Of a stretch of DNA of 35,757 bases, positions 6,273 to 34,304 are shown one piece after another. A program made the position numbers and the translations under genes. The stretch covers positions 11,779 to 47,535 of the forward strand of contig PLZN01000623.1 in NCBI GenBank assembly GCA_003152195.1, in the 5' to 3' direction. The first letter of the stretch is position 1. Each line of letters begins with the position of its first letter. Under the pieces are notes generated by a model. That model worked only from the letters and a program-made list of their open reading frames with translations. It was not told the origin of the DNA and did no database searches. This stretch comes from Acidobacteriaceae bacterium (GTDB taxonomy: Bacteria > Acidobacteriota > Terriglobia > Terriglobales > Acidobacteriaceae).

Positions 6273-6369
6273 TCTCTCGGCTCTCATCAGAACGAACTTT
6301 CGTCATGAATCGACGAGGGCCCGAGCCGGCTATTCGGTCAGAAGACTTGTGTTTCTTTGGAGGCGGCAA

Positions 6370-13336: not shown

Positions 13337-13386
13337 TTGTCGATGAAGACTTCCAGCCTTCTCATCATGAAGGGCAAGGTCACTTC

Positions 13387-16896: not shown

Positions 16897-17589
16897 ATGA
16901 GGCCATGGAATTCTGACGAGGAACTCTTCGTAATCGCAAAGCGAGAGCTCTTCACTTGTGTTGTAGGCGACGTAATGGATCGCCTGCATCTCGTCCATCA
17001 ATTCCTGCCGCCGCAGATCCGGCCTTTGCAGCAGGACATGGTCGTAATTGGCCGCGCAATGCCCGTTTTGTCCGGGGATGTGTTTGAGGAAAGAGTTGAA
17101 GGCACTGCAAACAAGTTAAGTGGAAAGCCCTTTGGCCTGATGCTTGAGGCTTTGGATGATCTTCGCCCCAACGAGATCTATGTGAATACCGGTTCCTCTC
17201 CGCGCAACGCCATGTGGGGAGAGCTTATGAGCACGCGCGCTCGTAGGCTAGGGGCGAGGGGCGCCGTAGTGAACGGCTATGTAAGAGACACCAGAGCAAT
17301 TCTGAACCTAAACTTTCCAACCTTTTCGTTCGGATCCTACGGCCAAGACGCTGGACCTCGTTACAAGGTCTACGACTTCCGCATCCCTATCGAAATAGGA
17401 GGTGTACGGGTGAACCCCGGCGACATTCTCTTTGGGGATATAGACGGAGTTGTGGTTGTTCCTGCCGATGTCGAGACCGAGGTGTTTACGAAGGCGCTTG
17501 AAAAGGCACGTGGGGAAAAGGTCGTCAAGAGCGAGCTCGAAGCTGGATCGAGCGCCGTTGCTGCTTTTCAAAAGCATGGGATCATGTAG
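16897..17589 (+). CDS. RraA-like / HMG-aldolase superfamily protein
   Basis: This 230-residue cytoplasmic protein contains the RraA/class II pyruvate aldolase signatures: TCVVGDVMDRLHL near the N-terminus, then GELMSTRARRLGARGAVVNG followed by YVRDTRAI. The GEL-x-x-x-A and R-D residues are those that bind metal and substrate in 4-hydroxy-4-methyl-2-oxoglutarate aldolases. PGDILFGDIDGVVVVP completes the family motif. Members with the R-D pair cleave or decarboxylate 4-hydroxy-2-oxo acids to pyruvate; true RraA binds RNase E and is shorter (about 160 residues). This protein is nearer the longer aldolase-like group. An AGGAG lies 7 bases before the ATG. The SDR gene follows after 15 bases, so both are surely one operon. 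Its likely job is the aldol cleavage step of a keto-sugar-acid pathway; the precise substrate is unknown. Confidence 0.88.
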   Translation: MRPWNSDEELFVIAKRELFTCVVGDVMDRLHLVHQFLPPQIRPLQQDMVVIGRAMPVLSGDVFEERVEGTANKLSGKPFGLMLEALDDLRPNEIYVNTGSSPRNAMWGELMSTRARRLGARGAVVNGYVRDTRAILNLNFPTFSFGSYGQDAGPRYKVYDFRIPIEIGGVRVNPGDILFGDIDGVVVVPADVETEVFTKALEKARGEKVVKSELEAGSSAVAAFQKHGIM

Positions 17590-17604
17590 GGAGTGACCAG
17601 AACC

Positions 17605-18426
17605 ATGAGTCTTCGATTCGACGGAAAAGTCGCTCTTATCACCGGCGGTGCGATGGGAATTGGTGCGGCGTCTGCGAAGAAGTTTTGCGAGCTAGGCGCT
17701 TCTGTCGCAATCCTGGACCGCGACGCAGAGGCTGGGCAGGCGACCGTCAATGCACTGTCAAAGGCAGGGCATACGGCAACCTTTCACATCTGTGACGTCA
17801 GTAGCGAATCCAGCGTAAGAGACGCAGTCAACGAAGCGGTACAGCTTCATGGCGCCGTTCATGTACTCGTAAGCAATGCGGGAATTCAGCGCTATGGAGA
17901 CGTGGTGAATACCAGTTCAAGTGTCTGGGACGAGATATTCGATGTCCACGTAAAGGGCTGCTTTTATGCAACAAAGTTTGCTATTCCAGCGATGATTCGA
18001 TCCGGCGGAGGGTCGATCGTCATCGTCGCATCTACGCAGAGTTTTACTGCGATTGTAAGTTCCGCCGCGTATGTCGCGGCGAAGCATGCACTGCTAGGCA
18101 TCACCCGTTCAATCGGACTGGATTATGCGCGCCAGAACATCCGTGCCAACTGTGTTTGTCCTGGGACCATCGATACGCCGATGTTACGCCAGGCGGCAGC
18201 CTTAGCGGCGGCGCCCAATGAGGTGATTGATATCTGCAGCCGAATGCACGCGATGGGAAGAATTGGAAACCCAGAGGAGGTCGCGAATGCAATCGCGTTC
18301 CTGGCGAGCGACTGGGCATCCTTCATTACGGGAACGTCTCTCATCGTCGATGGTGGCCTGCTAATTCCGACTGGCGGCATGGGCCTCCAGGAAAGTGGCA
18401 TCGCGACGACAGGAGATAGGAAATGA
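17605..18426 (+). CDS. SDR-family NAD(P)-dependent oxidoreductase
   Basis: The track starts at a GTG (17593) that overlaps the only Shine-Dalgarno (AGGGAG); the ATG at 17605 is the better start (273 residues, MSLRFDGKVALITGG). All classical SDR signatures are present: TGGAMGIG cofactor loop, an Asp after the second strand (ILDRDAEA) favouring NAD(H), NAGIQ, catalytic Ser in VASTQSF, and YVAAK as the Tyr-x-x-x-Lys pair. CPGTIDTPM and the C-terminal ITGTSLIVDGG close the fold. This classical 250-275-residue type oxidises or reduces sugars, polyols or sugar acids. With a UxuA-like dehydratase in the same operon, a fructuronate/mannonate or aldose dehydrogenase role is reasonable but not shown. 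Confidence 0.93.
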   Translation: MSLRFDGKVALITGGAMGIGAASAKKFCELGASVAILDRDAEAGQATVNALSKAGHTATFHICDVSSESSVRDAVNEAVQLHGAVHVLVSNAGIQRYGDVVNTSSSVWDEIFDVHVKGCFYATKFAIPAMIRSGGGSIVIVASTQSFTAIVSSAAYVAAKHALLGITRSIGLDYARQNIRANCVCPGTIDTPMLRQAAALAAAPNEVIDICSRMHAMGRIGNPEEVANAIAFLASDWASFITGTSLIVDGGLLIPTGGMGLQESGIATTGDRK

Positions 18427-18516: not shown

Positions 18517-19721
18517 TGCCGGCTTCTGAATCCGTTCGTTGGAAGGGGCGCAATGCCACGCGGCTGACAAATGGCGTTGTCGAGCTGATCGCTCTGACGG
18601 GCGGTGGGCATCTTGCCGGGCTACGGTTTTTAGAGGCGGATGGGCGCTCGTCTCAGAACGTATTGTGGGAAGCGCCATGAGCAACATACGATCCGGTACC
18701 AGGTCCGTCGGAAGAACTGCTGCAGATGTATGGGCCCGCAAGTGTAAGTAAGTTCATGGCCGGGTATACCGGGCATTCTCTTTGTTTGGATTATTTCGGC
18801 GAGCCATCTGCCGAGGAAGCCGCCTCGGGTCTTGGCCTGCACGGGGAGACGCCTGTCGCCCAGTGGAACGTGACCAGCCCCACCCAGGTGGAAAGGCCCT
18901 ATTGCCGGTGGAATGTACGGTTGCCAGCAGCGCAACTGACGTTCGAAAGGGAAGTTCGGTTGGGAGAGGGAGAAAGCGTGGTCTACGTGCAGGAAACCGT
19001 CAGCAATGAGCGCGACGTCGACCACGCTTGCGATTGGGTTCAACATGCCACGTTTGGTCCACCATTCTTGAAGGAAGGTGAAAGTACCTTAATCGCTTCC
19101 GCACGACGTGGAATTACCTGGCCACTGGGCTATGAGAATGCTTCGCTGCTTGCGAATGATCGCGAATTCGTCTGGCCGTATGCACCGTGCGAGGGTGTCG
19201 AAGGGGCTACCGACCTCAGACAGCCATTCGGTACAAGAGGTCGCGGTTTTGTGGCCGGCGTCCAGCTTGATCCCGGACGAGAGATGGAATACTTGTTGGC
19301 TGTGAATTGGAAACTGCGGCTGGGCATGGGCTATTGTTTCCGTCGGCAAGACTTTCCCTGGATGACCGTTTGGGAGGAGAACTTTGCCCGGCAGGGCACC
19401 CCCTGGAACGGCAGAACGCAGGCGCGCGGGATGGAATTCGGCACGACACCGCTGCCACTGGGCCGCGAAGAGACTTTTCGCCGCGGACATGTATTCGATA
19501 TGCCGAGCTGGTGTGTCATCCCCGCAGGCGCCGAACGAACAGCTCGGTACGCAATCTTTCTCTTTGCCGTTCCTCCTCAAATTCACTCCATTCAAAATGT
19601 CGCAACGGAGGCCGACGCCGTGGTCCTCTTTGATGAGCATTCACAACCAGCCATCTCGATCCCGGCGCATGGATGTGAAAAGTTTCTATCGAAAAGCGAC
19701 TTTAAGTTTCCCACGGCCTGA
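18516..19721 (+). pseudogene. Galactose-mutarotase-like protein gene interrupted by in-frame TGA
   Basis: Reading from the ATG at 18516 gives MPASESVRWKGRNATRL... to VLWEAP and then a TGA at 18678-18680. The same frame continues without a break as ATYDPVPGPSEELLQ into the track ORF that starts at 18726. The upstream part contains LIALTGGGHLAGLRFLE, a typical start of this mutarotase-like family, and the downstream part has VQHATFGPPFL, GLTWPLGYEN-like (GITWPLGYEN) and WNGRTQARGMEFGT motifs. The family normally has Trp after LWE-x-P, so the TGA most simply arose from TGG. Restored length would be 401 residues. It could be a recent pseudogene, a sequencing error, or yield only the 331-residue product from the ATG at 18726. 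Intact members would be cytosolic beta-sandwich proteins that bind or epimerise aldoses. Confidence 0.75.
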
Positions 19722-19788: not shown

Positions 19789-20895
19789 ATGAAGATCGGC
19801 TTAGGTCTCTATCGTCATATGCTGTCGCGTGATTATTACGACTTCGCACGACAGGCTGGATGCACTCATACTGTGATCCATTTGGTGGATTACTTCCGGC
19901 AAAGCTCGACTAATCCTCGTAACAATCAGCCGACAGGTGGCAAATACGAGCCCTGGGGAGTGGCAGGCGATCCTGAAAGTTTGTGGACCACGAGCGAGCT
20001 ATTGAAGATACGTCGAGAGATCGAAGATGCCGGTCTGGTTTTGGCCGCGATCGAGAATATTGACCCAGCATTCTGGTACGACATTTTGCTGGATGGCCCC
20101 AAGCGCTCTAAGCAAATTGAGAATATAAAAAACATCGTTCGTCGCATGGGAGAAGCAGCCATCCCCGTTCTTGGCTATAACTTCAGCATCGGCGGGGTCT
20201 GTGGCCGTATATCCGGACCATTGGGACGGGGAGGGGCCATAACAGTTGGAATGGATGGTCCCGTTGACGATATGCCCATTCCGAATGGAACGGTGTGGAA
20301 TATGGTCTATGACCAACATGCTGCACCGGGCAGCTTACCGTCCATCACCCGTGAAGAACTTTGGCGCAGGCTGGAAGGGTTTCTGGAAGAGCTCGTCCCC
20401 GTGGCCGAACAAGCGGGAGTGCGGCTCGCTGCACATCCGGATGATCCACCCATGCCCACGATGCGGCAGCAGCCTCGGCTTGTCTATCAGCCCGGTATGT
20501 ATCAAAGGTTATTGGATATCGTGCCCAGCAAATCAAATCAGCTGGAGCTTTGCGTGGGCACGTTGGGTGAGATGACGGAAGGTGATGTCTATGATGCAGT
20601 AGACCAATACAGTAAACAGGGAAAGATTGCGTACATTCATCTCCGGAATGTTGTTGGGAAAGTTCCGTTTTACCGCGAAACCTTCATCGACGAGGGCGAC
20701 GTCGACATGATTCGCATTTTGTCTATCTTGAAAAACAATAACTTCGATGGGGTAATCCTTCCAGATCACACGCCCCAGATGACCTGTTCCGCCCCGTGGC
20801 ACGCGGGCATGGCGCACACAATCGGTTTCGTCGAGGCCGCCCTGGCAGGGCTTGGGAAGCAAACGGCAGCACGAGGGGTCGGGCAACATTCCTGA
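19789..20895 (+). CDS. UxuA-like mannonate dehydratase family protein
   Basis: This 368-residue TIM-barrel protein carries the metal-site motifs of mannonate dehydratase in order: LAAHPDDPP, ELCVGTLGEM (Cys ligand), YIHLRNV (His) and ILPDHTPQM (Asp/His). UxuA removes water from D-mannonate to give 2-keto-3-deoxygluconate in hexuronate breakdown, and E. coli UxuA is slightly longer (about 394 residues). The N-terminal part (KIGLGLYRHMLSRDYYDFARQAGCTHTVIH) is less like E. coli and nearer to sugar-isomerase-type barrels, so the substrate may be another aldonate. There is no signal peptide. AAAGGA lies 12 bases before the ATG. It is the last gene of the RraA-SDR-mutarotase operon and converges on the next GH38-like gene. 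The family call is firm; the specific substrate is not. Confidence 0.85.
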   Translation: MKIGLGLYRHMLSRDYYDFARQAGCTHTVIHLVDYFRQSSTNPRNNQPTGGKYEPWGVAGDPESLWTTSELLKIRREIEDAGLVLAAIENIDPAFWYDILLDGPKRSKQIENIKNIVRRMGEAAIPVLGYNFSIGGVCGRISGPLGRGGAITVGMDGPVDDMPIPNGTVWNMVYDQHAAPGSLPSITREELWRRLEGFLEELVPVAEQAGVRLAAHPDDPPMPTMRQQPRLVYQPGMYQRLLDIVPSKSNQLELCVGTLGEMTEGDVYDAVDQYSKQGKIAYIHLRNVVGKVPFYRETFIDEGDVDMIRILSILKNNNFDGVILPDHTPQMTCSAPWHAGMAHTIGFVEAALAGLGKQTAARGVGQHS

Positions 20896-20990: not shown

Positions 20991-23660
20991 TCAGAGAATC
21001 TCGAAGGTATTGGCCTTCCAAGGATGAAGCCCAAACTTCAATTTGTTGCCCGACGAAGAGACGTCCGCGACCTTTGTTCCCAGCAAGTTGGTTTCTGACG
21101 CACTGGCCACCGGAATGTCGAGCTGAACTGACGCCTCCCCGCCGCTGCCCCCGATTTCCAGCGTTCTGAGTTCGAAGCCCCCACTTTCTTTCTTGCGAAA
21201 GACCAGCAGATGTGCGCTTTCCGGAGTCACGTTGACGAAGCTTTTTTCCGGGGAAAGGCTCCCGCTCCTAGGCTGGTCCACAACCGTGACGAGCTTTTGG
21301 CTGAATTCATCGGCAGCCCGCGCTCGATCCGAATTGCTGAAACTATTGCCGTGAGGTCGCAATAGATGGCGATACTCGGAATAACGCGGCCAACCATATT
21401 CATGAGAGTAAAAGGACTCCCACTCCCGCATTACAAGGTTAGAGAACGTACCGTCACCATCGCGCTTGAAGTATTGGGTTCCAGGATGCAATACCAGGAG
21501 CCCGCTGTCTTTTCCTATCAAATCAACGAATGTGCGCCCCTGAAATACCTGCTGCTTGGTGGCTTCAATACCAAGGGGGAAATCGCGAATGACCGAGGTG
21601 GTTTGGAAGTTAGGCGCGAAAGTTAGCCAGTAACCTTCCTTGATCTCGACCGGGAAGTGATCCTTAGGGTCGTAGGCGTCAATGGCGGGCGGGATTTCTG
21701 CGAGTACTCTGCTGGTTACTTCCACCCAAGGTAAGTCTGCATACAGGGAGATCCACGTCTCGAAGGCCAGAAGAGGCCACTCGTGATGCGTTTTGAGCGT
21801 AGCGCGAAGCGGGCCTTTGTCGATCCAGGTGTAAGTGGCCTTCGACGTGGAGCTATCGTAAGACTTCGGAATGGGTATCTGGTGTTCCCATGGCGCCCCG
21901 GGCGCGTTGCCGAATAGGCAGTAGCCCTGATTGGGCGTTCCCTTGAAAAGTGGAAACGCACCGTTCCCGCTTCTCAACATCTCCTGACCTGTCCCCTTGT
22001 CGAACAGGCTGGCGATTGCGCCATGGTCCTGGTCCAACCTGATCTTCAAATGGCTGTTCTCGAGTGCGAATTGCTGCTCGTCGATCATGAGGTCCGTATT
22101 GGGTTCTTTAACAGCGTCGGACCCGAACACAAGATAGTAGGTGTCATATCCGAGGCTGGGAACTTTTTCGGCGACGAACGAAACTTCGGCAACCAGCAGG
22201 TCCCCCTGGCCATTCTTATGGCTCTCCATAATCTGGGAAAGCGCCACGCGGCCGGAGCGGTGCTTCACGACGATGTCTTTCACGTTTTCAGGTATCGGAT
22301 AGATTCGTCCCGTTGTTGCTATACCCGTCCGCTCCCACGCACATGGATTAAAGACGGTAACAGCGAGTTGACTCTGTTTGCCTTGTTCCGAGTTGATGCG
22401 ACGAGCAATGTGACGAATAGAGGCGTCCAGCACATCGCCTCCTTGCTTGTTCGATTGATCGAGGTGGTCATAGCCGATCGAACCCCAGGTCAAATTATGG
22501 TAGTCCTCGATACGATCGAGAGGCGCCATCCGGTCGCCCTGCCAGCGGGAGTATTCACAGAGTGCTACGTCGTGGCTCTGAGAAGTAAGCAGGTGTTTCC
22601 ATGCAGTCTCCATAGCCCGCGACTGGTTCGGCGCACCGAGACTGAAGGCAATCGCATCAAAGCGTTCCGCTGCTAGAAGAGTTGCTTCCACCTTGCGATC
22701 CATAATGCGCAGTTGATCGCCACCTAGTCCCCACGTGAGCAGCTTGCGCCATGCATCCATGTCGAAGTAAACGGCTTTGGTGGAGGAGGGGCCGTACTTG
22801 TCCAGATACTCTTTCAGAGTGACAAATTCGACTGGAGAATCCTCCGCCACCTTCGCATACTTTTTGGACGTCTCCAGGTAGGCGGGACTCTCAGGCCGAT
22901 CCCAGCCGAACTCTTCCCAGGTGAAGATGAGAGGCTTGCCCAACGCACGCAGTTTCTTAAACTCTTCAGAAGAGGCGAGGGTCTTGATATCGGGTGAATA
23001 GCCAAAAAGTCCGTTCCTGGGCGTGCTCGGAACCCTGCTCCCATCCATTCCTTGCCACTCAAAGGAATTGACTTCCAGGTGGGGGACGCCGGCCTTTCCC
23101 CACGTGTCTACTTGTGAGAGGCTGGCATAGCGATAGCCTGCTCCAAGTACGATCTGCGGAATCTGGGGATGAGAGAATTCCTCCTCGTCGAGGAAGGTGA
23201 CCATCTCATAATCAAGCGCTTTGAGGATCGTGCTACGTCCATAGACGATCTGACGAATGTTCGACTCGCCGCTGAACATCGTCCCTAATGGCTGGCCGTA
23301 GGTACCACCGATCAACTCAATTTTCCCCGCGGCAAGATACGGCTTTAACCGGTCGGCGATCTCGGGGAACTTTTCCGCCATGAATTCATAAGCCCGCGCG
23401 TCCCACTCGATGCATGTCTTGACATGGGGTGCGAGATCCGCCATTCCCATAGCGTCGATCGCCGAAAGGACGCACGACTCGATGCCCAACTGCCAGCCGA
23501 TGCCGGTATAGCTCCAGTGGTTACACAACGCGACGCAAAAGCTATCCGCGGTTTGAGTTGTCGCCGCCAAAAGGTGGTCGGGCAACTTAAGAAAGGCTGC
23601 ACTGGCACCACAAAGCAAACCAGTCTTGACGAAGTTTCTGCGATTTAGGCGATTGTTCAA
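20991..23660 (-). CDS. Tat-exported divergent GH38-like protein
   Basis: This 889-residue protein starts at a TTG (23660) preceded by GGAG at 9 bases. Its Tat signal is LNRRNFVKTG, followed by a hydrophobic stretch. GH38 features are recognisable: GKIELIGGTYGQPLGTMFSGE, then FLDEEEFSHPQIPQIVLGAGY, where family members have the D-x-FG-x-x-x-x-LPQIL nucleophile loop. TSQSHDVALCEYS near residue 362 corresponds to the metal-binding QFHD motif. Beta domains follow (FNPCAWERTGI, LGYDTYYLVF, GAIASLFDKGTG). At the N-terminus, where H-x-H/N-x-D is expected, the sequence reads CNHWSYTGIGW, so one metal ligand appears lost or moved. It lies opposite the rest of the operon and divergent from the PhyH gene, sharing an operator-like dyad with it. 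Catalytic activity is therefore uncertain. Confidence 0.8.
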   Translation of the reverse strand: MNNRLNRRNFVKTGLLCGASAAFLKLPDHLLAATTQTADSFCVALCNHWSYTGIGWQLGIESCVLSAIDAMGMADLAPHVKTCIEWDARAYEFMAEKFPEIADRLKPYLAAGKIELIGGTYGQPLGTMFSGESNIRQIVYGRSTILKALDYEMVTFLDEEEFSHPQIPQIVLGAGYRYASLSQVDTWGKAGVPHLEVNSFEWQGMDGSRVPSTPRNGLFGYSPDIKTLASSEEFKKLRALGKPLIFTWEEFGWDRPESPAYLETSKKYAKVAEDSPVEFVTLKEYLDKYGPSSTKAVYFDMDAWRKLLTWGLGGDQLRIMDRKVEATLLAAERFDAIAFSLGAPNQSRAMETAWKHLLTSQSHDVALCEYSRWQGDRMAPLDRIEDYHNLTWGSIGYDHLDQSNKQGGDVLDASIRHIARRINSEQGKQSQLAVTVFNPCAWERTGIATTGRIYPIPENVKDIVVKHRSGRVALSQIMESHKNGQGDLLVAEVSFVAEKVPSLGYDTYYLVFGSDAVKEPNTDLMIDEQQFALENSHLKIRLDQDHGAIASLFDKGTGQEMLRSGNGAFPLFKGTPNQGYCLFGNAPGAPWEHQIPIPKSYDSSTSKATYTWIDKGPLRATLKTHHEWPLLAFETWISLYADLPWVEVTSRVLAEIPPAIDAYDPKDHFPVEIKEGYWLTFAPNFQTTSVIRDFPLGIEATKQQVFQGRTFVDLIGKDSGLLVLHPGTQYFKRDGDGTFSNLVMREWESFYSHEYGWPRYSEYRHLLRPHGNSFSNSDRARAADEFSQKLVTVVDQPRSGSLSPEKSFVNVTPESAHLLVFRKKESGGFELRTLEIGGSGGEASVQLDIPVASASETNLLGTKVADVSSSGNKLKFGLHPWKANTFEIL

Positions 23661-23820: not shown

Positions 23821-23836
23821 CCCAGTGTTCACTGGG
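23821..23836. repeat. Palindrome CCCAGTG-TT-CACTGGG
   Basis: This perfect 7-bp dyad with a 2-base centre overlaps the left half of the TGTTCA-N6-TGAACA site. It is not repeated at the 27253 site, so it may be a second protein-binding site or a hairpin unique to this promoter region. Confidence 0.45.
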
Positions 23837-23843
23837 TTGAACA
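23826..23843. promoter_or_regulatory. Operator-like dyad TGTTCA-N6-TGAACA in divergent promoter region
   Basis: TGTTCA-CTGGGT-TGAACA has perfect 6-bp arms. Its reverse complement differs from the site at 27253-27270 at one of 18 positions, including the central bases. It lies between the divergent GH38-like (minus) and PhyH (plus) genes, 89 bases upstream of the PhyH ATG. The match with the second divergent region strongly suggests a shared regulator. Confidence 0.6.
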
Positions 23844-23932
23844 TCGCGATGTGGGTCTCTGGAGGGATGTTAGTATAAAGAGTAGGACATTCCTTTGCGT
23901 GGCGTTGGGCAATTGACTTTGGGGGTTCTTTC

Positions 23933-24784
23933 ATGATCGAGAGCGCAACCAAGCTAAGCGCGCAACAGGCGCAATTCTACGACAAGAACGGGTATTTGTT
24001 TCCCATTCGCGTTTTTGACGATGCCGAGACGGCGGAGTTTCGCCAGCGGTTTGACGACTACACCCTGGAAAATCAAGAGCGCTTGAAGGGGTTAATCCCG
24101 CGTGAGCGGCGGGCCGTTTACGCTCTGACCCATCTGCTGCTTCCTTGGGTACACAAGATGGTGTCTCATCCGAGGGTGTTGGATGCGGTGGAAGGCGCCA
24201 TCGGTCCTAATATTCTCGTGTGGGAGTCTGCCTGGTTTGTTAAATTCGCCCGCGACCCAGCGTTCGTGTCCTGGCATCAGGACGGCGCATATTGGGGTTT
24301 GAAGCCACCAGAAGTGACGACTGCCTGGATAGCGCTTTCTGAAAGCACTCTGGGAAATGGCTGCATGCAGGTCATGCCGGGAACACAGAACCTACAGCTG
24401 TTGCAACACGACACCTACGATAAAGACAACGCATTGTCGCGTGGCCAGGAGATTGCTTTGGGTAATGTGGACGAGGCCAATGCCGTAAGCATGAGCCTCG
24501 CTGCCGGTGAAATGTCGCTGCACCATATCGGAATCGCACACGGTTCCAAGGCAAATACCTCAGATCGTCCCCGGATTGGCATCGCCATCCGCTACATTGC
24601 CCCAGAAGTTGTCCAGGATGGCTCTGAGCGCCAGATTGTTCAACTGGTGCGCGGCAAGGATGAACATGGCCACTTCGAAATAGTCGAGGCGCCGGCGGAG
24701 GGAATCAGCTCGATAGGGACGTGGGAGGAAGCCCGCAAAAGGATTATGAAGAACATTCTCGCAGGAGTGGTGCCAACCAACTGA
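23933..24784 (+). CDS. PhyH-family Fe(II)/2-oxoglutarate-dependent dioxygenase
   Basis: This 283-residue cytoplasmic protein is of normal PhyH length. The iron facial triad is visible: WHQDGAYW gives the H-x-D pair near residue 115 and HHIGIAHGS supplies the distal His near residue 203. The 2-oxoglutarate-binding Arg is in SDRPRIGIAIRY. N-terminal LSAQQAQFYDKNGYLFPIRVF is the typical opening. Such enzymes hydroxylate or demethylate small molecules. In a sugar locus it may open or demethylate a modified sugar, lipid or aromatic substituent, but nothing in the sequence fixes this. GGGGG lies before the ATG at 23933. It converges on the glycosidase gene at 24830 with only 45 bases between the stops. 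Confidence 0.9.
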   Translation: MIESATKLSAQQAQFYDKNGYLFPIRVFDDAETAEFRQRFDDYTLENQERLKGLIPRERRAVYALTHLLLPWVHKMVSHPRVLDAVEGAIGPNILVWESAWFVKFARDPAFVSWHQDGAYWGLKPPEVTTAWIALSESTLGNGCMQVMPGTQNLQLLQHDTYDKDNALSRGQEIALGNVDEANAVSMSLAAGEMSLHHIGIAHGSKANTSDRPRIGIAIRYIAPEVVQDGSERQIVQLVRGKDEHGHFEIVEAPAEGISSIGTWEEARKRIMKNILAGVVPTN

Positions 24785-24829
24785 ATCCTGAGACCGATCG
24801 CACGACATTCCGATATCCTCAAAACCTGA

Positions 24830-27082
24830 TCAGGACGCGGGAAAAATAGCCTCCGTTCCATATGCGTTCGTTGCTGCTAGCGTGCCATCGCGATAGACCT
24901 CATAGTTCCACGGTCCCATAACCACATCATACAGATGGCCTCGAAATCGATAGCCCGTCATCCGTGCCACCCCCAGTTCGTGGTGGTACGAGGGAAAGAT
25001 GTTCAGTGAATTATCTTGCTGAGGCCGCAGTCCAAACACTCCAAACAGGATCGCCTGAACACCGCTTCCCGCCGAAATTTCAAGGTCCATTTCGACCTGC
25101 GTATGACCGGGGAAGTCGGTAAACATGGATTGCGGAATATACGGCGAATACTCTGCCCAGCGTAGGCACCGGGAAAGAACGTTCCAGGCCAACTCGGATT
25201 TGCCGAGGTGATACAGAGACTCTGCAAGACGCAACGGCTCGCCGGCATACTGGCCCCCGCCGCCAAAGTCTGCGTCTTCGCGATCCCAGTGCGTTTGATC
25301 GGACTTGGAGATTGAGTACATCCCATAGGGACCAAGAAACTCGCCTTCCTTAATGTGATCGATCAAGCGCTGCTGCTCAGACGTGGAAAGCATCCCGGTA
25401 TCGAGCAGTTCGAATTGATGGTAGCTCCACACGAGGTGACGGGTTCCATCAGGGTAAAGGTTTAGGAACCAGCCATCCTTCTGATCCCAGAGCTCGTTGG
25501 CCATGGATTCCTGAATTTGGTCTGCCCATCGATCAAACTGCGCTGCTTCTGGGTCGTGGCGCTTGGCGCACCATGCGGCGACTTGTCGAAAATAGGCGAA
25601 GGCCAGTCCGTTGGTCGCTGCCACGGTATGTTGGTAGCCATCCGTCCGAATTTCGATCATCTTCTCGGAACCGGTCCCGAAGTCCAGCAGGCCGTCGGGG
25701 CGGCCAAACCGCTTTCGCAGTTCTACCCCAGTCCGCTTCATACTTTCAAAGACCGTCGTTCCTGCAACAGCCTGGTCCAGAAGGCCCTCGTCCCCGGTCT
25801 GAAGGAGATAATCCTGCAGAATCCGCATTGCAGCAAAGGGGGTTTGCGCGTACCAGTAGTCGTTTGCTATTCCATTCCAAGGTACGTAACTGCTTTTAAG
25901 CAGGCCGGCCTTGAGATAAAGCAGGAAGGTTTGACGTAGGCCGGTGGGATCCAGATAACTCAACATCTCGGAAGCATACGAAGTATCCCACGCTACCGAA
26001 TCGGTCCACGTTCCGACGGCGTAGAAGGGATCGGTGACGAAATTCTTGCTATTCCACCGCGCCTCCAGAACGCTCAAGATGCAGCGGCGATAGAAATCAT
26101 TAAATATGGGATCGTCGGACGATACCTCTGGAATGGTTTTAGCTGCCGATTCAAGGCGGCTCCTCCATGCCAGGTCGGCCTCTGTCATCCGCTGAGCGAT
26201 GTCGGGTGACAAAGCGGCCGTTGCGGGAGAGAAGGGCTGTTGAATCACGATGGCAAAGTAGGCAGTGCGACTCGACTTTCCCGGGATCTCCCATTTCCAA
26301 ACCTGTTGTGTTTGTTCTTTTTGACCGGGTAGGTCGCTTTCTACCGTGATAATTGGTTGCTTACGTGCAGCCGGGGAAGCGTTTGGATCGACGGCTTTCC
26401 CGGTAGGCTCACTCCCGCCATCGGGAGGAACGTGCTCGAGATTGGTCGTGCCTTGATTCGGAATAACGGTCAACGAAAGAGGTTCGGCCTGACGGTTCTC
26501 GATCTCTACCTCCAGGTATACCTCATCCGCTTTCGCCGAGACGCTGGCCTTGGTTGTAAGCCCAAAGGAAATCCAGTGCCCGTTAAACTCTTTGTGAAAG
26601 GTCCCGGTGCGAAACATTGCGTTCGGCTGCCAGTAGGCTCGCTGCCAGAGCAAAACATAAGGCGTTCCTGGAAGAAAATTCAAACCCAGTGGCGTCGTGC
26701 CCTTGCCTGTTTCGAGCAGACGCTTGAAGACGTCAGGGACTGTGTCTTGAATCAGCACGCCGGTCTTAGCTTCTCGAAACGCGAGTGAAAAATTGTAGTC
26801 AGGAATATCCACGGGAGGGAAAAGAAGTGTCTGCAAGCCTGTAACGCTTTTGTCGCGGAGAGAAACCGCGCCGCGTCCGTTGAATAGGCGTATCGGGGCA
26901 TCGCCGAAAAATATGCTGCTGCGTCGCATGCCCAATGTCTCAAGGCTGAGCCAGTTCGACGAGCCGCGTGCGTTGCCTTCCTTGGGGGGGCCCATCGGCA
27001 TTTCGATCTGGGCAGGCGCCAGGGAGAGGAGCGGAAAGCACACCAAAATCAGGCGAATTAAGGATCGCACGGTTGATCTCAT
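24830..27082 (-). CDS. Secreted six-hairpin glycoside hydrolase-like protein
   Basis: The track starts at 27097, but the ATG at 27082 has GGAG five bases upstream and begins a good signal peptide (MRSTVRSLIRLILVCFPLLSLAPAQ), giving 750 residues. The N-terminal beta-rich domain (to about residue 270) precedes an (alpha/alpha)6-barrel with WDTSYASEMLSYLDPTGLRQTFL, VPWNGIANDYWYAQTPFAAMRILQDYLLQTGD, GLLDFGTGSEKMIEIRTDGYQ and WDREDADFGGGGQYAGEPLRLAES. Acidic residues in the last blocks (DREDAD, FGTGSEKM) are candidates for the catalytic pair. The overall fold resembles GH63/GH37-type proteins. It shares its layout with the 1267-3513 gene but is clearly a different subgroup and uses a Sec rather than a Tat signal. 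It is divergent from the GH38-like gene at 27636. Confidence 0.8.
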   Translation of the reverse strand: MRSTVRSLIRLILVCFPLLSLAPAQIEMPMGPPKEGNARGSSNWLSLETLGMRRSSIFFGDAPIRLFNGRGAVSLRDKSVTGLQTLLFPPVDIPDYNFSLAFREAKTGVLIQDTVPDVFKRLLETGKGTTPLGLNFLPGTPYVLLWQRAYWQPNAMFRTGTFHKEFNGHWISFGLTTKASVSAKADEVYLEVEIENRQAEPLSLTVIPNQGTTNLEHVPPDGGSEPTGKAVDPNASPAARKQPIITVESDLPGQKEQTQQVWKWEIPGKSSRTAYFAIVIQQPFSPATAALSPDIAQRMTEADLAWRSRLESAAKTIPEVSSDDPIFNDFYRRCILSVLEARWNSKNFVTDPFYAVGTWTDSVAWDTSYASEMLSYLDPTGLRQTFLLYLKAGLLKSSYVPWNGIANDYWYAQTPFAAMRILQDYLLQTGDEGLLDQAVAGTTVFESMKRTGVELRKRFGRPDGLLDFGTGSEKMIEIRTDGYQHTVAATNGLAFAYFRQVAAWCAKRHDPEAAQFDRWADQIQESMANELWDQKDGWFLNLYPDGTRHLVWSYHQFELLDTGMLSTSEQQRLIDHIKEGEFLGPYGMYSISKSDQTHWDREDADFGGGGQYAGEPLRLAESLYHLGKSELAWNVLSRCLRWAEYSPYIPQSMFTDFPGHTQVEMDLEISAGSGVQAILFGVFGLRPQQDNSLNIFPSYHHELGVARMTGYRFRGHLYDVVMGPWNYEVYRDGTLAATNAYGTEAIFPAS

Positions 27083-27252
27083 TGGCTCTCCAAACATTGT
27101 TCATTATCCAAATGCCAAATCCCTCTTCCGGAGGGGCAGACCGGTGGCGAAAGGCTACCGTCCCCCCCAATTTGCATGAACGGAAGGTTACAGTTCGGAT
27201 AACGCAAGGGCGGAAACGAACCGTAAGAATATCACACCGACCAGAGTCTCAA

Positions 27253-27270
27253 TGTTCAGCCCAGTGAACA
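27253..27270. promoter_or_regulatory. Operator-like dyad TGTTCA-N6-TGAACA
   Basis: TGTTCA-GCCCAG-TGAACA has perfect 6-bp arms and matches 17 of 18 bases of the reverse complement of the 23826 site. Both lie in divergent intergenic regions of GH38-like genes. The same orientation-independent half-sites appear weakly at 6221. A common repressor or activator is inferred. Confidence 0.6.
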
Positions 27271-27400: not shown

Positions 27401-27635
27401 GTGTCGTGGAACCTGGTCTGACGAAATTAAGCATGAACAAAATAATAACCTCGAAGATGTTAAGAAAAGGTGGCGTGGTGTGCGGTGGCAGAGCCGTCTG
27501 TTCAAGGGTGGCTTCCTATGCCTTTTGGGATGCAGTCCAGCGCATAGGTGACGATTGTTCGCTCGCTTCGATGAGAGCGGCAGAAAAAGTTGTTCGATCG
27601 CAGTCGAAACCAACGTCTTAGCGGGTGACGAGTTT

Positions 27636-30600
27636 ATGGATCGGAGAGATTTCTTACAAAGCGCATTGGCGTGCGCAGTGTTTAGCTCAATTCCGGGCAT
27701 CGGACCAGCGTCGCGACTACTCGGGGCGGAACTCCAGGAAACTGAAGAGAACCCAAATTGGGCCAACCTGGCTCACAAGGCGAGCGTTCGGGCTTCCAGC
27801 CATGTAGCCGATCCTCCGTGGGGATATCCTCCAGTAAACGCGATCGGTGACGACCTGATGAACTCATGGGAAGCTGACGGGCAGGCGTCTGGCGCGTGGC
27901 TCGAGGTTGGATTTCCAGGAGCGCGCCCGGTAAGCGAAATCTGGGTTCTTCCTAAAGCTCTTCCCCGCGATGTCCTCGGTCAGGATGTGTACAACCTTGC
28001 CTACAGCCGCGTGCAGTGGTTCGAGGCGCCTCGTCACATCCGTCTTAGCTTCGCGGATGGCGATGCTGTGCATGCCGAACTTCGCCAAGCGGATTTTTTT
28101 CAGATCATTACACTTCCCCAAGCCAGGCAGACATCCACGGTCCGTCTCACCATCGAAGACGTATGGCCAAAGCCTGGAGGGAAAGAGACCGGAATTGGAA
28201 AAGTCCGCATCTTTCCCAGGAAACATCCGATCTCCTTCCAAATTGACACCTACAAAATGTATGACGCCGACGGGGGGCAGGCTGTTCAAGCTGCGACGCT
28301 GCACCTGATCAATCCGGGAAAAGAAATCAAGGGTGGTCAACTCGAAATTTCCCTCAGAGGAAAAGTCTTGAAGCAAATTGCGTTGAGTCCGATTCCATCA
28401 AGCGCGAACACGCAACAAGATGTGTGGATTCCTGCTCCATTCGAAGATGAGGAGATGGAGTTCGCAGTTGTGGCACCATCCGCCCAATTCTGCTGTAAGC
28501 GCAATCTACTTGTACCCACTTATCATCCGACTTACTTCGACGGCGGAACGTTCTCGTTGAACTGTACATGCCACAACGATCTCGGTTGGCTGAATACGCA
28601 GGCCAAGACGGCTGACTTTCGTTCGTCAGATATTATCGTGCCTGCGCTCGGCCTCCTCAAAGAGTTTCCAGAGTTCTTGTACTCGATGGAGTGTACGGCC
28701 TACCTGATGGAGTTTCTGAGCCTGCATCCCGAGCTACGTGACGAGATGGTCGCCAATATGCGCGGGCGACGCTTTACATGGGGGGCAAGCTACGTTGAGT
28801 GTCAGGAAGTGCATGTCGGACCTGAGAAGCTCGTGCGGCAATTCTATTTTGGCCGACTGTGGCTAAAGAATACCTTCCCTGGAATCGACACTTCCTTTTA
28901 TGTGAAAACGGATCCCCCGTCGATGACTCTCCAGATGCCGCAAATTCTTGCCAAAGCCGGTGTCAAATACTGTATCCAAGGCCGCATGCCTTATGGTTTC
29001 TACAACTGGGTCGGTCCCGACGGCTCCATCGTGCTGACCTACGGTTATCACTACGTGGATCCGATGCGATTGCTCGATCCCAAAGATAACCACGGATGGC
29101 TTCGTTATGCGGAACAGCGGGAAGAGTATTACAGCCAGCACGACCTTCCGCGCAAATTCATTTACGACTACACCAGCGACTACCTACCCCCTCAGCCCAG
29201 CTTGCCGCCTTATCTACGCCAACAAAACGAGGCGATGGGGAAGTTTGCCGCCATTTGGAACCAGCGTTTTAGCAGCGAACCCAGCCGCCAGGTTAACCCA
29301 CCTAGGATGCTATTCACTGCGCCGGAGCAGTTCTTGGAGGAGTTCACAAAATCCCCGCTGGACATTACCACGCTGTCCGGCGATTGGCCTTTTCCTTGGG
29401 CCTATTACGACGAACCAAGCAACCGTGAAGCACTTCTGTTAGGCCGGACCGCACATAACCAACTGCTTGCAGCAGAGCGGATCTATGCAGGGCTGAGCCT
29501 CAATCAGGGTTTTCAAAACTATCCAACCCAGAAGTTTGAAGATGCCTGGAAAGCGGATGTGTGGCCAGACCACGGTTGGGGCGGAAATCACGGCTTACTC
29601 ACTGATCAGGTCTATGCCGACTCCTACGCACGATCCAAGACGTTATCTGACCAGATTCTCGGTGAGGTCGCATCTGAAATGGCAAGCCGTGCCACAAAAG
29701 CATCGGCTAACCAGATCCCGATTATTGTCTTCAATCCTCTCTCCTGGGAGAGAACCGACCTGGTCGAGTGTCAATTCCGTATTCCGTCCGGCTGGACCAA
29801 TTTAACCGTACGTGACAGCACGGGCAAGGAGTTCCCGTACGAAATATTGGAAGGAGATCTCGAGGCGGGGACTACAAAAATGTTATTCCTCGCAAGGGAT
29901 GTGCCCTCGGTTGGTTACGAGACCTACTATCTGGCATCGTCATCGACACCGGCACAGGCTCCAACTATCCTCACGGGCGATACGGTTGAGAATAAATTCT
30001 ATCGGCTCACCTTCGGAGCGGGAGGTATCAAAAGCCTGTACGATAAGCGATCGAAGTGGGAAGTGCTGCGCGCGGACAAGTTTGACGGAGGTGAAGTAAT
30101 ACAATTTACTGCGCCTGGGCAGGCATGGGAGGATCCTGAGGTCGTCACAACCAAGGACTTTGATAAGACCTCAAACCACACATTTCCTTTCAAACAGTTC
30201 TCGAAGACCCCCTTACGTACGACCGCTGTCCGCGAGGCTCAGTTCAAGAACTTTACTCTGCGAGAATCTTTCCATCTCTATGAGCAACTCGATCGAGTGG
30301 ATATAGAGGTGGAGATCTTAAACTGGAACGGCACGAAGGAAAGAGAACTGCGGGTTGTTTTCCCCATCAACCTGGATGAAGCGAAGCTATGCTACGAGGT
30401 TCCTTTTGGCACCGTGGAGATAGGCAAGAATGAGATAGATTTCTCTCTCTTACCGCCCGACAACGATACGCAATTTACCCCGGCAATTTATGGGGGCCAG
30501 CATCCTTTGACTTTTCGCGAAGCTATCAACTGGATCGACGCTTCGTCGCCTGATTATCTCAGTACCGGATGTTTGGCCGCGTCAGACATCACGGTGCATC

Positions 30601-31121
30601 TGTTCCGCGATGAAACGACGAATCCGGTGAAGTATCCCGTGCTGCAGCATGTGCTCTTATCGGTTCGCAAGAGCCTGGCGTGGAATCCGGAATATTGGTT
30701 CACCCAAGCGGGAAGTCACCGTTATCGGATGTCTCTCTTGCCCCACGGTGGAAGCTGGCGCTTTCGTTACCGTGAGGCGATCGGGTTTAATCATCGCTTG
30801 ATCGCGTGTGTTGCCGATTCAGTGGAGCCGGCATCCGGAGCCACGCTTCCGGAATCTGCTAATTACCTGCGGTTGGATCCATCGAATCTTATTTTGACCG
30901 CGATGAAAAAGAGCGAAGGCAATGATTTCGTGACAATCCGATTTTACGAGGCAGAGGGAACTGCATGCACAGCTCAGGTTCATCTGGCTAAGAGCATTCG
31001 AGAGGCATGGAAGACCAACTTGATCGAAGAGAATGAGGAAGCTATAAAGCCCCGTAACGATGGGAGCTTGGAGCTGACAATTAAGCCTTGGGAGATTGTC
31101 ACAATTAAGGTGGCGGTGTGA
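27636..31121 (+). CDS. Tat-exported GH38-like alpha-mannosidase with discoidin-like N-terminal domain
   Basis: The track start (27555) is upstream; the ATG at 27636 opens a Tat signal (MDRRDFLQSALACAVFSS), giving 1161 residues, with only a weak GTGACGAG before it. Residues ~45-200 resemble an F5/8-type C (discoidin) carbohydrate-binding domain (NLAHKASVRASS, NSWEADGQASGAWLEVGFPG). The GH38 catalytic part has the canonical TCHNDLGWLNTQ metal motif near residue 313. The nucleophile Asp is in VKTDPPSMTLQMPQIL near residue 426. AHNQLLAAERIYA and DVWPDHGWGGNHG carry further metal-site residues. FNPLSWERTDLVE starts the C-terminal beta domains. It keeps more canonical GH38 motifs than the other three copies, so alpha-mannosidase-like hydrolysis is most likely here. 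It is divergent from the 24830 gene and followed by the CoA-transferase operon after 108 bases. Confidence 0.88.
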   Translation: MDRRDFLQSALACAVFSSIPGIGPASRLLGAELQETEENPNWANLAHKASVRASSHVADPPWGYPPVNAIGDDLMNSWEADGQASGAWLEVGFPGARPVSEIWVLPKALPRDVLGQDVYNLAYSRVQWFEAPRHIRLSFADGDAVHAELRQADFFQIITLPQARQTSTVRLTIEDVWPKPGGKETGIGKVRIFPRKHPISFQIDTYKMYDADGGQAVQAATLHLINPGKEIKGGQLEISLRGKVLKQIALSPIPSSANTQQDVWIPAPFEDEEMEFAVVAPSAQFCCKRNLLVPTYHPTYFDGGTFSLNCTCHNDLGWLNTQAKTADFRSSDIIVPALGLLKEFPEFLYSMECTAYLMEFLSLHPELRDEMVANMRGRRFTWGASYVECQEVHVGPEKLVRQFYFGRLWLKNTFPGIDTSFYVKTDPPSMTLQMPQILAKAGVKYCIQGRMPYGFYNWVGPDGSIVLTYGYHYVDPMRLLDPKDNHGWLRYAEQREEYYSQHDLPRKFIYDYTSDYLPPQPSLPPYLRQQNEAMGKFAAIWNQRFSSEPSRQVNPPRMLFTAPEQFLEEFTKSPLDITTLSGDWPFPWAYYDEPSNREALLLGRTAHNQLLAAERIYAGLSLNQGFQNYPTQKFEDAWKADVWPDHGWGGNHGLLTDQVYADSYARSKTLSDQILGEVASEMASRATKASANQIPIIVFNPLSWERTDLVECQFRIPSGWTNLTVRDSTGKEFPYEILEGDLEAGTTKMLFLARDVPSVGYETYYLASSSTPAQAPTILTGDTVENKFYRLTFGAGGIKSLYDKRSKWEVLRADKFDGGEVIQFTAPGQAWEDPEVVTTKDFDKTSNHTFPFKQFSKTPLRTTAVREAQFKNFTLRESFHLYEQLDRVDIEVEILNWNGTKERELRVVFPINLDEAKLCYEVPFGTVEIGKNEIDFSLLPPDNDTQFTPAIYGGQHPLTFREAINWIDASSPDYLSTGCLAASDITVHLFRDETTNPVKYPVLQHVLLSVRKSLAWNPEYWFTQAGSHRYRMSLLPHGGSWRFRYREAIGFNHRLIACVADSVEPASGATLPESANYLRLDPSNLILTAMKKSEGNDFVTIRFYEAEGTACTAQVHLAKSIREAWKTNLIEENEEAIKPRNDGSLELTIKPWEIVTIKVAV

Positions 31122-31229: not shown

Positions 31230-32474
31230 ATGATGAAAAAGCCGACAGAGGAATCATTTGGACCGCTCAAGGGTTTAGTCGTGCTTGACTTTAGTCAGCT
31301 TGCCCAAGGCCCGTATGCAACCCAAATCCTCGGCGACCTCGGAGCGGAAATCATTAAGGTCGAGCCGCCGAAAGGCGACTGGATGCGTCATTGGAGCATG
31401 GCCAACCTTTACCTCAACGGCGAAGCCGCTTCCTATCTGTGCCTGAATCGGAACAAGCGCAGTATCGCCATCGACCTGAAGCAGAAAACGGGAGTTGAGG
31501 TGGCGAAGCGCCTGGCGGCTCGGGCCGACATAGTCATCGAAAACTTTCGCCCCGGCGTGATGGACCGGCTTGGTCTGGGATGGGAAACCTTATCGAAAAT
31601 AAATCCCCGCCTCGTGTACTGCTCCAGTTCGGGCTTTGGGCATAAGGGACCTTATGTAAAGCGTCCAGGGCAGGATCTTCTGATTCAGGCTGTTGCAGGT
31701 TTAGGCTTTATGTGCGGTCAGGCAGAAGACCCCCCAATGGGATTGCCGATTGGCGTCGCCGATTTTGTGGCCAGCCAGCACATCGTCTATGCGGTGTTAG
31801 CGGCGATTTACAGCCGCGAAAAGACGGGAGTCGGTCAGCGCGTTGATGTCAACCTGCTCAACTCGTTGCTCGCGATCATGATTCAGGAACTTACGGTATA
31901 CCTCAACGGCGGTGGTATGCCGCAACGAAGCGCTAGCCATATTCCCAGCCCATATCTGGGGGCTCCGTATGGATTCTATAAAACCGCGGATGGTTACATT
32001 GCGATCTCGATGAATCCGCTCGACAAACTGGCGCGATTGATCGGCGTGGAGGGCTATGAAGGCCGTTCCGAGTCTCAGGTGATCGAAGGCCGCGATGAAG
32101 TACGACGGGACTTTGCAAAGGGGTTCATCAAACGGACCACGAAAGAGTGGCTCGATCTTTTGTTCGAGGAAGATATCTGGTGCGCGCAGGTGAACGACTT
32201 TGCAGAAGTCGAAAAGGATCCTCAGATTGCAGAGAATGAGATGATAGTGTCTTGGGACCAGCCGAACGTCGGAACGGTGCGCAGCGTCGGGATCCCGGTG
32301 AAATTTCAGGATACGCCCGGAAAGATCAATCGTCCGGCGCCCTCCATCGGCGAACACTCGCTAGAGATTCTCCGTGAATTCGGTGGATACACGGAGGAGG
32401 AGATAAAAGCTATTCAAGACCAAGGCGCTGTCTGGATGGCTGGATCCCAAAAAACGGGGGGGTCCACCGAGTAG
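31230..32474 (+). CDS. CaiB/BaiF-type (family III) CoA-transferase
   Basis: This 414-residue cytoplasmic protein has normal family III length. Visible signatures: VLDFSQLAQGPYATQILGDLGAEIIKVE (CoA-site loop), LNRNKRSIAIDLK, ENFRPGVMDRLGL, CSSSGFG-KGP, and RPGQDLLIQA with the catalytic Asp near residue 149 that forms the acyl-enzyme intermediate. GVADFVASQHIVYAVLAAI and the C-terminal half complete the interlocked-dimer fold. These enzymes move CoA between carboxylic acids, activating a substrate without ATP. AAGAAGAGG stands directly before ATG-ATG. The next gene starts 39 bases on. In this setting it probably activates a carboxylate formed by the upstream sugar-acid steps, but the acid cannot be named. 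Confidence 0.93.
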   Translation: MMKKPTEESFGPLKGLVVLDFSQLAQGPYATQILGDLGAEIIKVEPPKGDWMRHWSMANLYLNGEAASYLCLNRNKRSIAIDLKQKTGVEVAKRLAARADIVIENFRPGVMDRLGLGWETLSKINPRLVYCSSSGFGHKGPYVKRPGQDLLIQAVAGLGFMCGQAEDPPMGLPIGVADFVASQHIVYAVLAAIYSREKTGVGQRVDVNLLNSLLAIMIQELTVYLNGGGMPQRSASHIPSPYLGAPYGFYKTADGYIAISMNPLDKLARLIGVEGYEGRSESQVIEGRDEVRRDFAKGFIKRTTKEWLDLLFEEDIWCAQVNDFAEVEKDPQIAENEMIVSWDQPNVGTVRSVGIPVKFQDTPGKINRPAPSIGEHSLEILREFGGYTEEEIKAIQDQGAVWMAGSQKTGGSTE

Positions 32475-32513
32475 CACTGGCAGCCGAGTGCTTAGGTGGA
32501 CAGGAGATGTGGA

Positions 32514-34304
32514 TTGGGAAAGATCGTCACAATTACCGAACTTGCTGACCCGATCTCTGGCGGAGTTGCCCTGGGCATCGGAGGTGTCCATTTTTCCAGG
32601 GTTCCCGTTGCACTCATCGAGACTCTTCTCTTTAGTGGCAAGAAAGACTTTACCTTCATCAGCTGGGGCGGCGGTGTTCCCTTGGAGATGTTCCTCGAAG
32701 CGGGGGCGGTGAAGAAGCTTGCCTTTGCGTTCTCCAGCCTGGATGTGTTCGGACTGGCGCCGCGCTTCCGCAAGGCACTCGAGGAGAATCGTATCGAGGT
32801 GCAGGAATGGACGGCTTTGGCGATGATCCAAGGTTTACACGCAGCATGGATGCGCCTCCCGGAAATGCCTTTTCAGGTGCCGGTCGGGTCCGACATGATG
32901 TCGCGTGGCGACTTCTGGAGAATCGAGGAGTCGCCTGTCTCAGGGACGCCTGTTGCGTATGCGCGGGCTCTTTCAATCGATAGTCTATTGCTGCATGCGC
33001 AGCGTGCGGACCGCGCCGGCAACATTGAAATTGAGGGTGCTCGTGGACTTGATGTATCAATGGCCGGTGCAGCGAAGCAGATCTTTGTCACCGTAGAAGA
33101 GATCGTTGAGACCGGCACCCTCGGATGCGCAAAGAACTCATTCGTTCTGCCTAAGGAGTTCGTTACGGCCGTTGCGTGTGTGCCATTCGGCGCATATCCA
33201 ACTTCGTGCCTGCCTTTCTACACGACCGACTACCGCCAACTGCAGCAGTTTGCGGAGCGATCGTCCGTGAAGGGAGGGGTGGGCACGGTTCCGGAACAGA
33301 ACTCTAAACCTGCACTTACCAAGTTTATCGCGAGCGAAGACCGTCGAGACCTGCTGGCCGCCGCGGTAAAGGTGAGTGTCGATAAGCTCACAGACGCAAC
33401 ATCCGGCAGGGAATTAGCAGCAACGTCGGGCGGAGACTGCACGCCTGAAGAATTTCTGGCTGTTTGCCTTTCACGCGAATACGACAGCAGCAGCATTTGT
33501 TCTGTGGGGTCAGTATCACCGTTGGCGGGGGTCTCCTATTTGCTTGCCAAGCGAACCCATGCTCCCGATCTGACGCTGATCGCGTTCAACGGTGGCTTCA
33601 TCGACGTAGATGCTCATCCGATCTCAATGTCACTTGGCGAGTCCCTCGACTTCCAAACCACGAAAGCGGTTTGGGGAGGCGACGACACCTATCACTGGTA
33701 TTACCAGCAGGGACGAATTACCCACGAGGTCATTCCCGTCGCGCAGGTTGATGTTCACGGCCGCACCAATAATGCCTGGATCGAGAGCGCTGGCAAACGT
33801 GTTCGGCTTCCGGGCCAGGGCGGTATGGCAGATGTCGCCAACCTCCATAAAAACTTCGTGCTGTACCTTACACGACATACGCCCGAGCGCTTTGCCGACT
33901 CGGTGAAATTCTGCAGTGCTTCGCGGGGACTTGCACGCGATGACGATCGACGCCGGGCCGGCTTGCAGCCAGGCCATACGCGATTGCTGACGAATCTCGG
34001 CATATTTGATTTGGATCTGGACGCAGGCCGGTTCCGCCTCGTGAGTATTCACCCCGGTGTATCCGTCGAACAGATTCGGGAGCAGACGGGTGGCGAGGTC
34101 CTGGTGCAAGACCCTCTGCCGGTTACTCCGATGCCCAATGCACAATATCTCCTCCTCATACGGCAGGAGATTGACCCGTTTGGTCTTAGGCGCCTCGAAT
34201 TCACCTCCGGGCGAATGCGGAATGAAATTCTGACTAGCATCCTTGATGCAGAAGAATCCACGATCAGACACATTTCTCCGGCGGTGGTGCGGACTCAAAA
34301 GTAA
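32514..34304 (+). CDS. Fused GctA/GctB-like CoA-transferase family I protein
   Basis: The track opens at a GTG (32496); I prefer the TTG at 32514 because AGGAG lies seven bases before it (596 residues, starting M-GKIVTITELADPI). Residues up to about 300 resemble the alpha subunit of glutaconate-type CoA-transferase (SGGVALGIGG, FISWGGGVPLEMFLEAGAVKKL, EIEGARGLDVSMAGAAKQIFVTVEEIVETG). From about residue 315 the beta-subunit-like half follows (EEFLAVCLSREYDSSSICSVGSVSPLAG, APDLTLIAFNGGFIDVDAHPISMSLG, GQGGMADVANL). Family beta subunits usually show a catalytic Glu in a Y-E-x-G block, where this protein reads FNGG. Loss of that Glu, if confirmed, would point to a hydrolase-like role, as in IpdAB. 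It shares its stop with the next gene's start (TAATG), so the two are coupled. Confidence 0.8.
   Translation: MGKIVTITELADPISGGVALGIGGVHFSRVPVALIETLLFSGKKDFTFISWGGGVPLEMFLEAGAVKKLAFAFSSLDVFGLAPRFRKALEENRIEVQEWTALAMIQGLHAAWMRLPEMPFQVPVGSDMMSRGDFWRIEESPVSGTPVAYARALSIDSLLLHAQRADRAGNIEIEGARGLDVSMAGAAKQIFVTVEEIVETGTLGCAKNSFVLPKEFVTAVACVPFGAYPTSCLPFYTTDYRQLQQFAERSSVKGGVGTVPEQNSKPALTKFIASEDRRDLLAAAVKVSVDKLTDATSGRELAATSGGDCTPEEFLAVCLSREYDSSSICSVGSVSPLAGVSYLLAKRTHAPDLTLIAFNGGFIDVDAHPISMSLGESLDFQTTKAVWGGDDTYHWYYQQGRITHEVIPVAQVDVHGRTNNAWIESAGKRVRLPGQGGMADVANLHKNFVLYLTRHTPERFADSVKFCSASRGLARDDDRRRAGLQPGHTRLLTNLGIFDLDLDAGRFRLVSIHPGVSVEQIREQTGGEVLVQDPLPVTPMPNAQYLLLIRQEIDPFGLRRLEFTSGRMRNEILTSILDAEESTIRHISPAVVRTQK

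Follow-up and report, generated by a model that had tools for sequence, protein, structure and literature searches.

Predicted operators of an IclR-family regulator in a GH38-rich glycan island of an Acidobacteriaceae genome

Analysis of a 35,757-nucleotide stretch of DNA from an Acidobacteriaceae bacterium (assembly GCA_003152195.1, contig PLZN01000623.1, positions 11,779 to 47,535 of the forward strand; hereafter the window) indicates that an 18-bp inverted repeat, TGTTCA-N6-TGAACA, probably represents the operator of an IclR-family transcription regulator, most likely the protein encoded at 5210-6025 of the same window. The predicted operators would define a local regulon on a single contig, comprising at least four sites: 1) 6221-6238, in the promoter of a TonB-dependent receptor gene (dyad 3). 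2) 23826-23843, in the divergent spacer between a GH38-like gene, GH38c, and a PhyH-family gene (dyad 1). 3) 27253-27270, in the divergent spacer between a GH63-like gene and a further GH38-like gene, GH38d (dyad 2). 4) Contig position 2561, in the promoter of another GH38 gene. Acidobacteriota are abundant degraders in soil. For a glycan island of this phylum that is rich in GH38 genes, the analysis yields a concrete predicted operator, a candidate regulator and the promoters on which it would act.

Results and discussion

Sequence and rarity of the dyad

An earlier note on this DNA had reported two exact dyads and a weaker copy, and all three were recovered where it had placed them. Dyads 1 and 2 match TGTTCA-N6-TGAACA with 0 mismatches, and dyad 3 departs from it at 2 positions (10 of 12). 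The two exact copies indeed lie in divergent spacers adjoining GH38-like genes, arranged as GH38(-)/PhyH(+) and GH63/MGH1-like(-)/GH38(+) respectively. When dyad 1 is reverse-complemented (TGTTCAACCCAGTGAACA), it is identical to dyad 2 (TGTTCAGCCCAGTGAACA) at 17 of 18 positions, as had been claimed; the further claim that the central six bases are shared has to be corrected, since the single mismatch falls within them and the core agrees at 5 of 6. Inclusion of the next flanking base raises the identity to 18 of 19, and the remaining spacer sequence is unrelated. A second inverted repeat, CCCAGTG-TT-CACTGGG (23820-23835), overlaps dyad 1 and is absent from dyad 2.

The whole assembly (6.8 Mb, 77% complete) was searched by pattern, and a scoring matrix was applied to the 59.6-kb contig that includes the window. 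The exact dyad occurs twice in the entire assembly, both times in these GH38 spacers, and the same half-sites at the 16 other spacings from 0 to 16 gave 5 scattered matches in total. With at most one mismatch, 25 sites were found genome-wide, versus 3 for a reversed control. Open reading frames (ORFs) contain 18 of these sites; the 7 others are distributed over the window contig (3), the iclR locus of contig C314 (2), and contigs C258 and C294 (1 each).

Chance palindromes devoid of function would be compatible with two of our figures: an assembly of this size would be expected to contain about 0.4 exact dyads, assuming all four bases to be equally frequent, and a scan of the window at 3 mismatches returned 15 matches versus 12.5 expected. 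Nevertheless, we regard such an origin as highly improbable, because the dyads are concentrated on one contig, are non-coding, share a common core and are top-ranked by a matrix trained elsewhere. Given that the 3-mismatch scan was at chance level, weak copies are mostly noise, and dyad 3 therefore rests on its matrix score and promoter geometry rather than on its mismatch count. For the same reason, the ranking of sites by mismatch count alone was dropped in favor of the outside-trained matrix. Two other candidate patterns were rejected: matches to a CTGGG-core pattern in 399 genomes were mostly coding and unrelated, and exact GC-core dyads in 201 relatives were mostly within ORFs.

Matrix scoring of the contig

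The matrix was trained on 10 sites taken from other IclR loci, of which 8 came from relatives, 2 from C314 and 0 from the window contig. Its four highest scores over the contig fell, in order, on 23826, 6221, 27253 (scores in Table 1) and contig position 2561 (14.0), and the maxima over 15 shuffled contigs ranged from 8.7 to 16.9. At a threshold of at least 13.5, all 4 sites on the contig are non-coding, and the loci of orthologues of the window's IclR yielded 13 non-coding sites (in 19 kb) versus 2 coding sites (in 187 kb); distantly related IclR loci yielded 0 sites in 145 kb. The fourth site lies 256 nucleotides (nt) upstream of its GH38 gene and 9.2 kb before the window; together with an adjoining TTGACT it occupies contig positions 2561-2587. 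The GH38 gene below it is split at an ambiguous base into ORFs 2834-4171 and 4168-5547, which is probably an assembly fault.

The dyad as the mark of one IclR clade

The window's IclR is a protein of 271 residues with the two domains by which the family is recognized, namely an N-terminal HTH_IclR (PF09339, 5.6e-17) and a C-terminal IclR_C effector domain (PF01614, 5.6e-35) in a polypeptide of about 250-270 residues. It scores below the cut-offs of more specific models: 108.4 versus 380 bits for the NCBIfam equivalog of the glyoxylate-bypass IclR, 122.8 versus 284.75 bits for TIGR02431 (PcaR/PcaU/PobR), and 102 versus 275 bits for KdgR. The genes for its four best relatives in our first genome set are each accompanied by two adjoining perfect or near-perfect dyads. 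Across 29 IclR loci sampled from the class Terriglobia, the spacing of 6 gave 17 perfect and 16 one-mismatch dyads, and ten other spacings (2-5 and 7-12) gave 0 perfect dyads. A tree of 51 IclR proteins placed every dyad-associated protein in a single well-supported clade, which comprises three subgroups: A, located beside isocitrate lyase/malate synthase genes; B, which includes the window's IclR; and C, which includes the IclR of C314. The dyad is thus very probably an IclR-family operator, and the suggestion of an IclR-family regulator in the earlier note gains support from its marking a single IclR clade throughout Terriglobia.

The loci of subgroup A carry paired dyads, 71-81 nt apart, on either side of a promoter that points away from iclR towards aceA/aceB, and TTGAC follows the first dyad by 5-6 nt in 6 of the 15 loci examined. 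This arrangement is a probable IclR operator pair of the glyoxylate shunt in Terriglobia.

Palindromes are also bound by other families, and the one feature of the dyads that would suit a regulator of the LexA, CRP/FNR or LacI type is their palindromic form. The textbook boxes of these families differ from the dyad in half-site sequence and in spacing. Moreover, in many genomes the dyad is found immediately next to iclR, strictly with 6 bases between its half-sites, and it agrees with the consensus published for IclR operators (PMC8222616). We consider ownership by another family very unlikely.

Promoter geometry around orthologues of the window's IclR

Orthologues 55-63% identical to the window's IclR were detected in Acidobacteriales bacterium 59-55, the cultivated Acidobacterium sp. 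S8 (NZ_LMUM01000015) and the SZAS KAN-5 metagenome-assembled genome, and many intergenic sites surround them; the two genomes from the genus of the window's own organism contained no close orthologue (best 31%). In this orthologue group a TTGACA is often found 3-4 nt after the dyad, with a -10 element after a further 17-18 nt. Upstream of a RhaT-like gene an identical 18-bp site is found in two genomes, the spacers of which otherwise align over only 50 bp, covering the site and the -35 element. When the dyad and the -35 element were combined in one pattern (TTCA-N6-TGAA-N5/6-TTGAC), 7 of 8 matches in genome G096 and 4 of 5 in G439 lay no more than approximately 50 kb from the iclR orthologue, and all 4 matches in G145 lay near one of its two iclR genes; controls gave 0-1 matches per genome.

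The TonB site and the 2561 site each have a TTGACT 4 nt after the dyad, as in the orthologue loci, and this shared dyad-(3-4 nt)-TTGAC layout links at least these two promoters with the orthologues of the window's IclR. The copy before the TonB receptor gene can accordingly be taken as real, on the strength of its matrix score and its distance from the -35 element. The clustering of dyads around orthologues of the window's IclR also lends support to the dedicated local regulon proposed in the earlier note.

As a tentative extension, we propose that one Terriglobia IclR clade might have kept the operator code TGTTCA-N6-TGAACA while its members switched programmes, from the glyoxylate shunt to sugar-acid islands and GH38 glycan islands. 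Among the orthologues of the window's IclR, the operator fixed 3-4 nt from the -35 element would possibly constitute a rigid regulatory module, one into which GH38 genes were drawn in the present lineage. The clade would then illustrate how an old regulator-operator pair became linked to differing catabolic islands.

Relationship to known IclR systems

E. coli IclR represses the acetate operon, aceBAK, via two operators. The sister-clade relatives described above likewise flank isocitrate lyase/malate synthase genes and have their operators in pairs, separated by about 75 nt. In contrast, the window's IclR is not an equivalog of the E. coli protein, resides in a glycan island and is associated with an operator unlike the A/T-rich E. 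coli type. It resembles the KdgR-like IclR regulators of sugar-acid metabolism in family and in its sugar-catabolic neighborhood, and differs from them in its sub-cut-off score and operator type.

The closest counterpart of the dyad is the operator of IclR group 1, with half-sites GTYCR...YGRAC and an even-spaced subgroup described as NGTYCRAW4TYGRACN, or NGT-12-ACN (PMC8222616). Both perfect dyads contain the GTYCR/YGRAC inverted half-sites, the TonB site deviating at a single base of one half-site (T in place of R). The 18-bp register is that of NGT-12-ACN, with 6 bases between the hexamers, strictly so in the clade. As in group 1, sites occur both close to iclR and in the promoters of predicted targets; the fixed distance of 3-4 nt to the -35 element is a feature of the window's orthologue group. 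Acidobacteriota do not figure in the taxonomic table of that study (PMC8222616), and no described IclR regulon for this phylum was found in the literature searched. What we describe is, as a sound prediction, a known type of regulatory system rather than a new kind, and the first such regulon found for the phylum in that literature.

Which of three paralogues binds the dyads

Three IclR paralogues of the genome come into question, on contigs C514 (which includes the window), C72 and C314, and the window's IclR is favored as the regulator because of its linkage to the dyads; by sequence alone, the two perfect copies would also suit the C314 or C72 protein. The C72 paralogue (C72:8114-8938) is 68% identical to it and lies in an orthologue-like gene order (dapA-like, iclR, glycosidase). 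The iclR of C314 has a dyad, TGTTCAACCCATTGAACG, at its start, where it overlaps the TTG codon that opens the longest iclR ORF, and a second one in the iclR-TonB spacer (C314:15255 and 16216). The neighborhood of this gene contains a cluster of lactonase, enolase-superfamily dehydratase, SDR and RraA genes.

Several observations weigh against the assignment of all four sites to the window's IclR. 1) Dyads 1 and 2 score 24.1 and 21.9 with a matrix of C-group sites versus 19.0 and 17.3 with one of B-group sites, to which the window's own regulator belongs. 2) Dyads 1 and 2 lack the adjoining -35 element seen at the TonB and orthologous sites, and a promoter scan of both GH38 spacers gave no convincing element next to the dyads. 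3) The C72 paralogue has no recognizable operator anywhere on its 46.8-kb contig. 4) The core of dyads 1 and 2 is GC-rich (CCCAG) versus the AT-rich published core (PMC8222616); the cores in question are CTGGGT and GCCCAG for the GH38 dyads and ATATGC, with an A/T-rich W3-4, for the TonB site, and related iclR loci also have GCCTAT, CTCCAT and ACCCTT. 5) The 2561 site taken alone scores inside the range of the shuffle maxima; it leans on its -35 element and needs further support. 6) Orthologues of the GH38 proteins (42-62% identical) at 11 loci in five other genomes, all of another family, are not accompanied by any non-coding dyad scoring at least 12.

The last of these observations bears on the nature of the association itself. 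Because the GH38 orthologues elsewhere lack the dyad, it appears to follow the regulator and not the glycosidases, and the link to glycosidases drawn in the earlier note cannot be upheld. That note had named a lack of conservation at orthologous loci as the result that would speak against it; such a lack is seen for the orthologues of the enzymes, whereas conservation is evident for those of the regulator. Conservation at GH38 loci was therefore rejected as support, and its absence was kept as evidence for an association of the dyad with the regulator.

The first three observations raise the alternative that dyads 1 and 2 are operators of another paralogue, that of C314 or C72, with the window's IclR mainly serving the TonB and 2561 promoters. 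The dyads of the C314 gene at its own start and in its TonB spacer would accord with this, as would the frequency of sites with both half-sites perfect, which is 5 of 8 in the C group versus 1 of 26 in the B group. However, the C-group sample amounts to only 8 sites. Furthermore, sites of the B group are concentrated around the respective iclR, and the dyads share a contig with that of the window; their scores also lie within the leave-one-out range of the B group (and outside the A-group range). On balance we consider control of the perfect dyads by another paralogue unlikely, and retain the window's IclR as the candidate regulator of all four sites.

Proposed mechanism

In the mechanism we envisage, a dimer or tetramer of IclR would bind just upstream of the -35 element and block the -35 region. 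Release of the protein would come from a product of glycan breakdown, for which a sugar acid is a reasonable guess, and would open expression of genes for uptake (the TonB receptor), for glycosidases (GH38, GH63-like) and for oxidative sugar catabolism. The sign of regulation is inferred, and we lean modestly towards a ligand-relieved repressor rather than an activator. One reason for favoring repression is the near-perfect sequence of the adjoining -35 elements, since promoters that depend on an activator seldom have a strong -35. Another is that in the sister clade the two dyads flank the promoter directed towards aceA/aceB. Counting against repression, the strict 3-4 nt distance between dyad and -35 element could equally serve contact with RNA polymerase.

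Gene content of the island

The features of the window are collected in Table 1. The tandem GH38-like pair at 9762-16791 is apparently an old duplication. The contig extends 11.8 kb upstream of the window, where more GH38-like, SDR and lactonase-like genes are found.

Table 1. Predicted operators, promoter elements and genes of the window
Feature	Position	Strand	Basis or remark
IclR-family regulator (HTH_IclR + IclR_C), proposed cognate	5210..6025	+	Pfam; in dyad-associated IclR clade
Dyad 3, CGTTCTATATGCTGAACA, predicted IclR-type operator, TonB-receptor promoter	6221..6238	+	matrix 19.6, second on contig
TonB-receptor promoter, -35 TTGACT	6243..6248	+	
TonB-receptor promoter, -10 AATAAT	6267..6272	+	18-nt spacer
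TonB-dependent receptor-type outer-membrane protein (CarboxypepD_reg + OMP barrel)	6349..9690	+	Pfam
GH38-like glycosidase (a)	9762..13307	+	Pfam
GH38-like glycosidase (b), tandem relative of (a)	13387..16791	+	translation; related proteins match both a and b
RraA-like aldolase	16897..17589	+	Pfam, NCBIfam
SDR dehydrogenase	17593..18426	+	Pfam, NCBIfam
DUF4432-like protein	18726..19721	+	Pfam, weak, slightly below cut-off
UxuA-like (mannonate dehydratase-related) TIM-barrel protein	19789..20895	+	Pfam, NCBIfam
GH38-like glycosidase (c), leftward predicted target at dyad 1	20991..23660	-	Pfam
Dyad 1, TGTTCACTGGGTTGAACA, predicted IclR-type operator, GH38c/PhyH divergent spacer	23826..23843		exact dyad; matrix 21.7, best on contig
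PhyH-family dioxygenase, rightward predicted target at dyad 1	23933..24784	+	Pfam
MGH1/GDE_C-like (GH63-type) glycosidase, leftward predicted target at dyad 2	24830..27097	-	Pfam, weak
Dyad 2, TGTTCAGCCCAGTGAACA, predicted IclR-type operator, GH63-like/GH38d divergent spacer	27253..27270		exact dyad; matrix 19.0, third on contig
GH38-like glycosidase (d), rightward predicted target at dyad 2	27555..31121	+	Pfam; ATG at 27639 is the likelier start
CoA-transferase family III, downstream of GH38d	31230..32474	+	Pfam
Coenzyme A transferase family protein, downstream of GH38d	32496..34304	+	Pfam
Extracellular solute-binding protein, downstream of GH38d	34304..35503	+	Pfam

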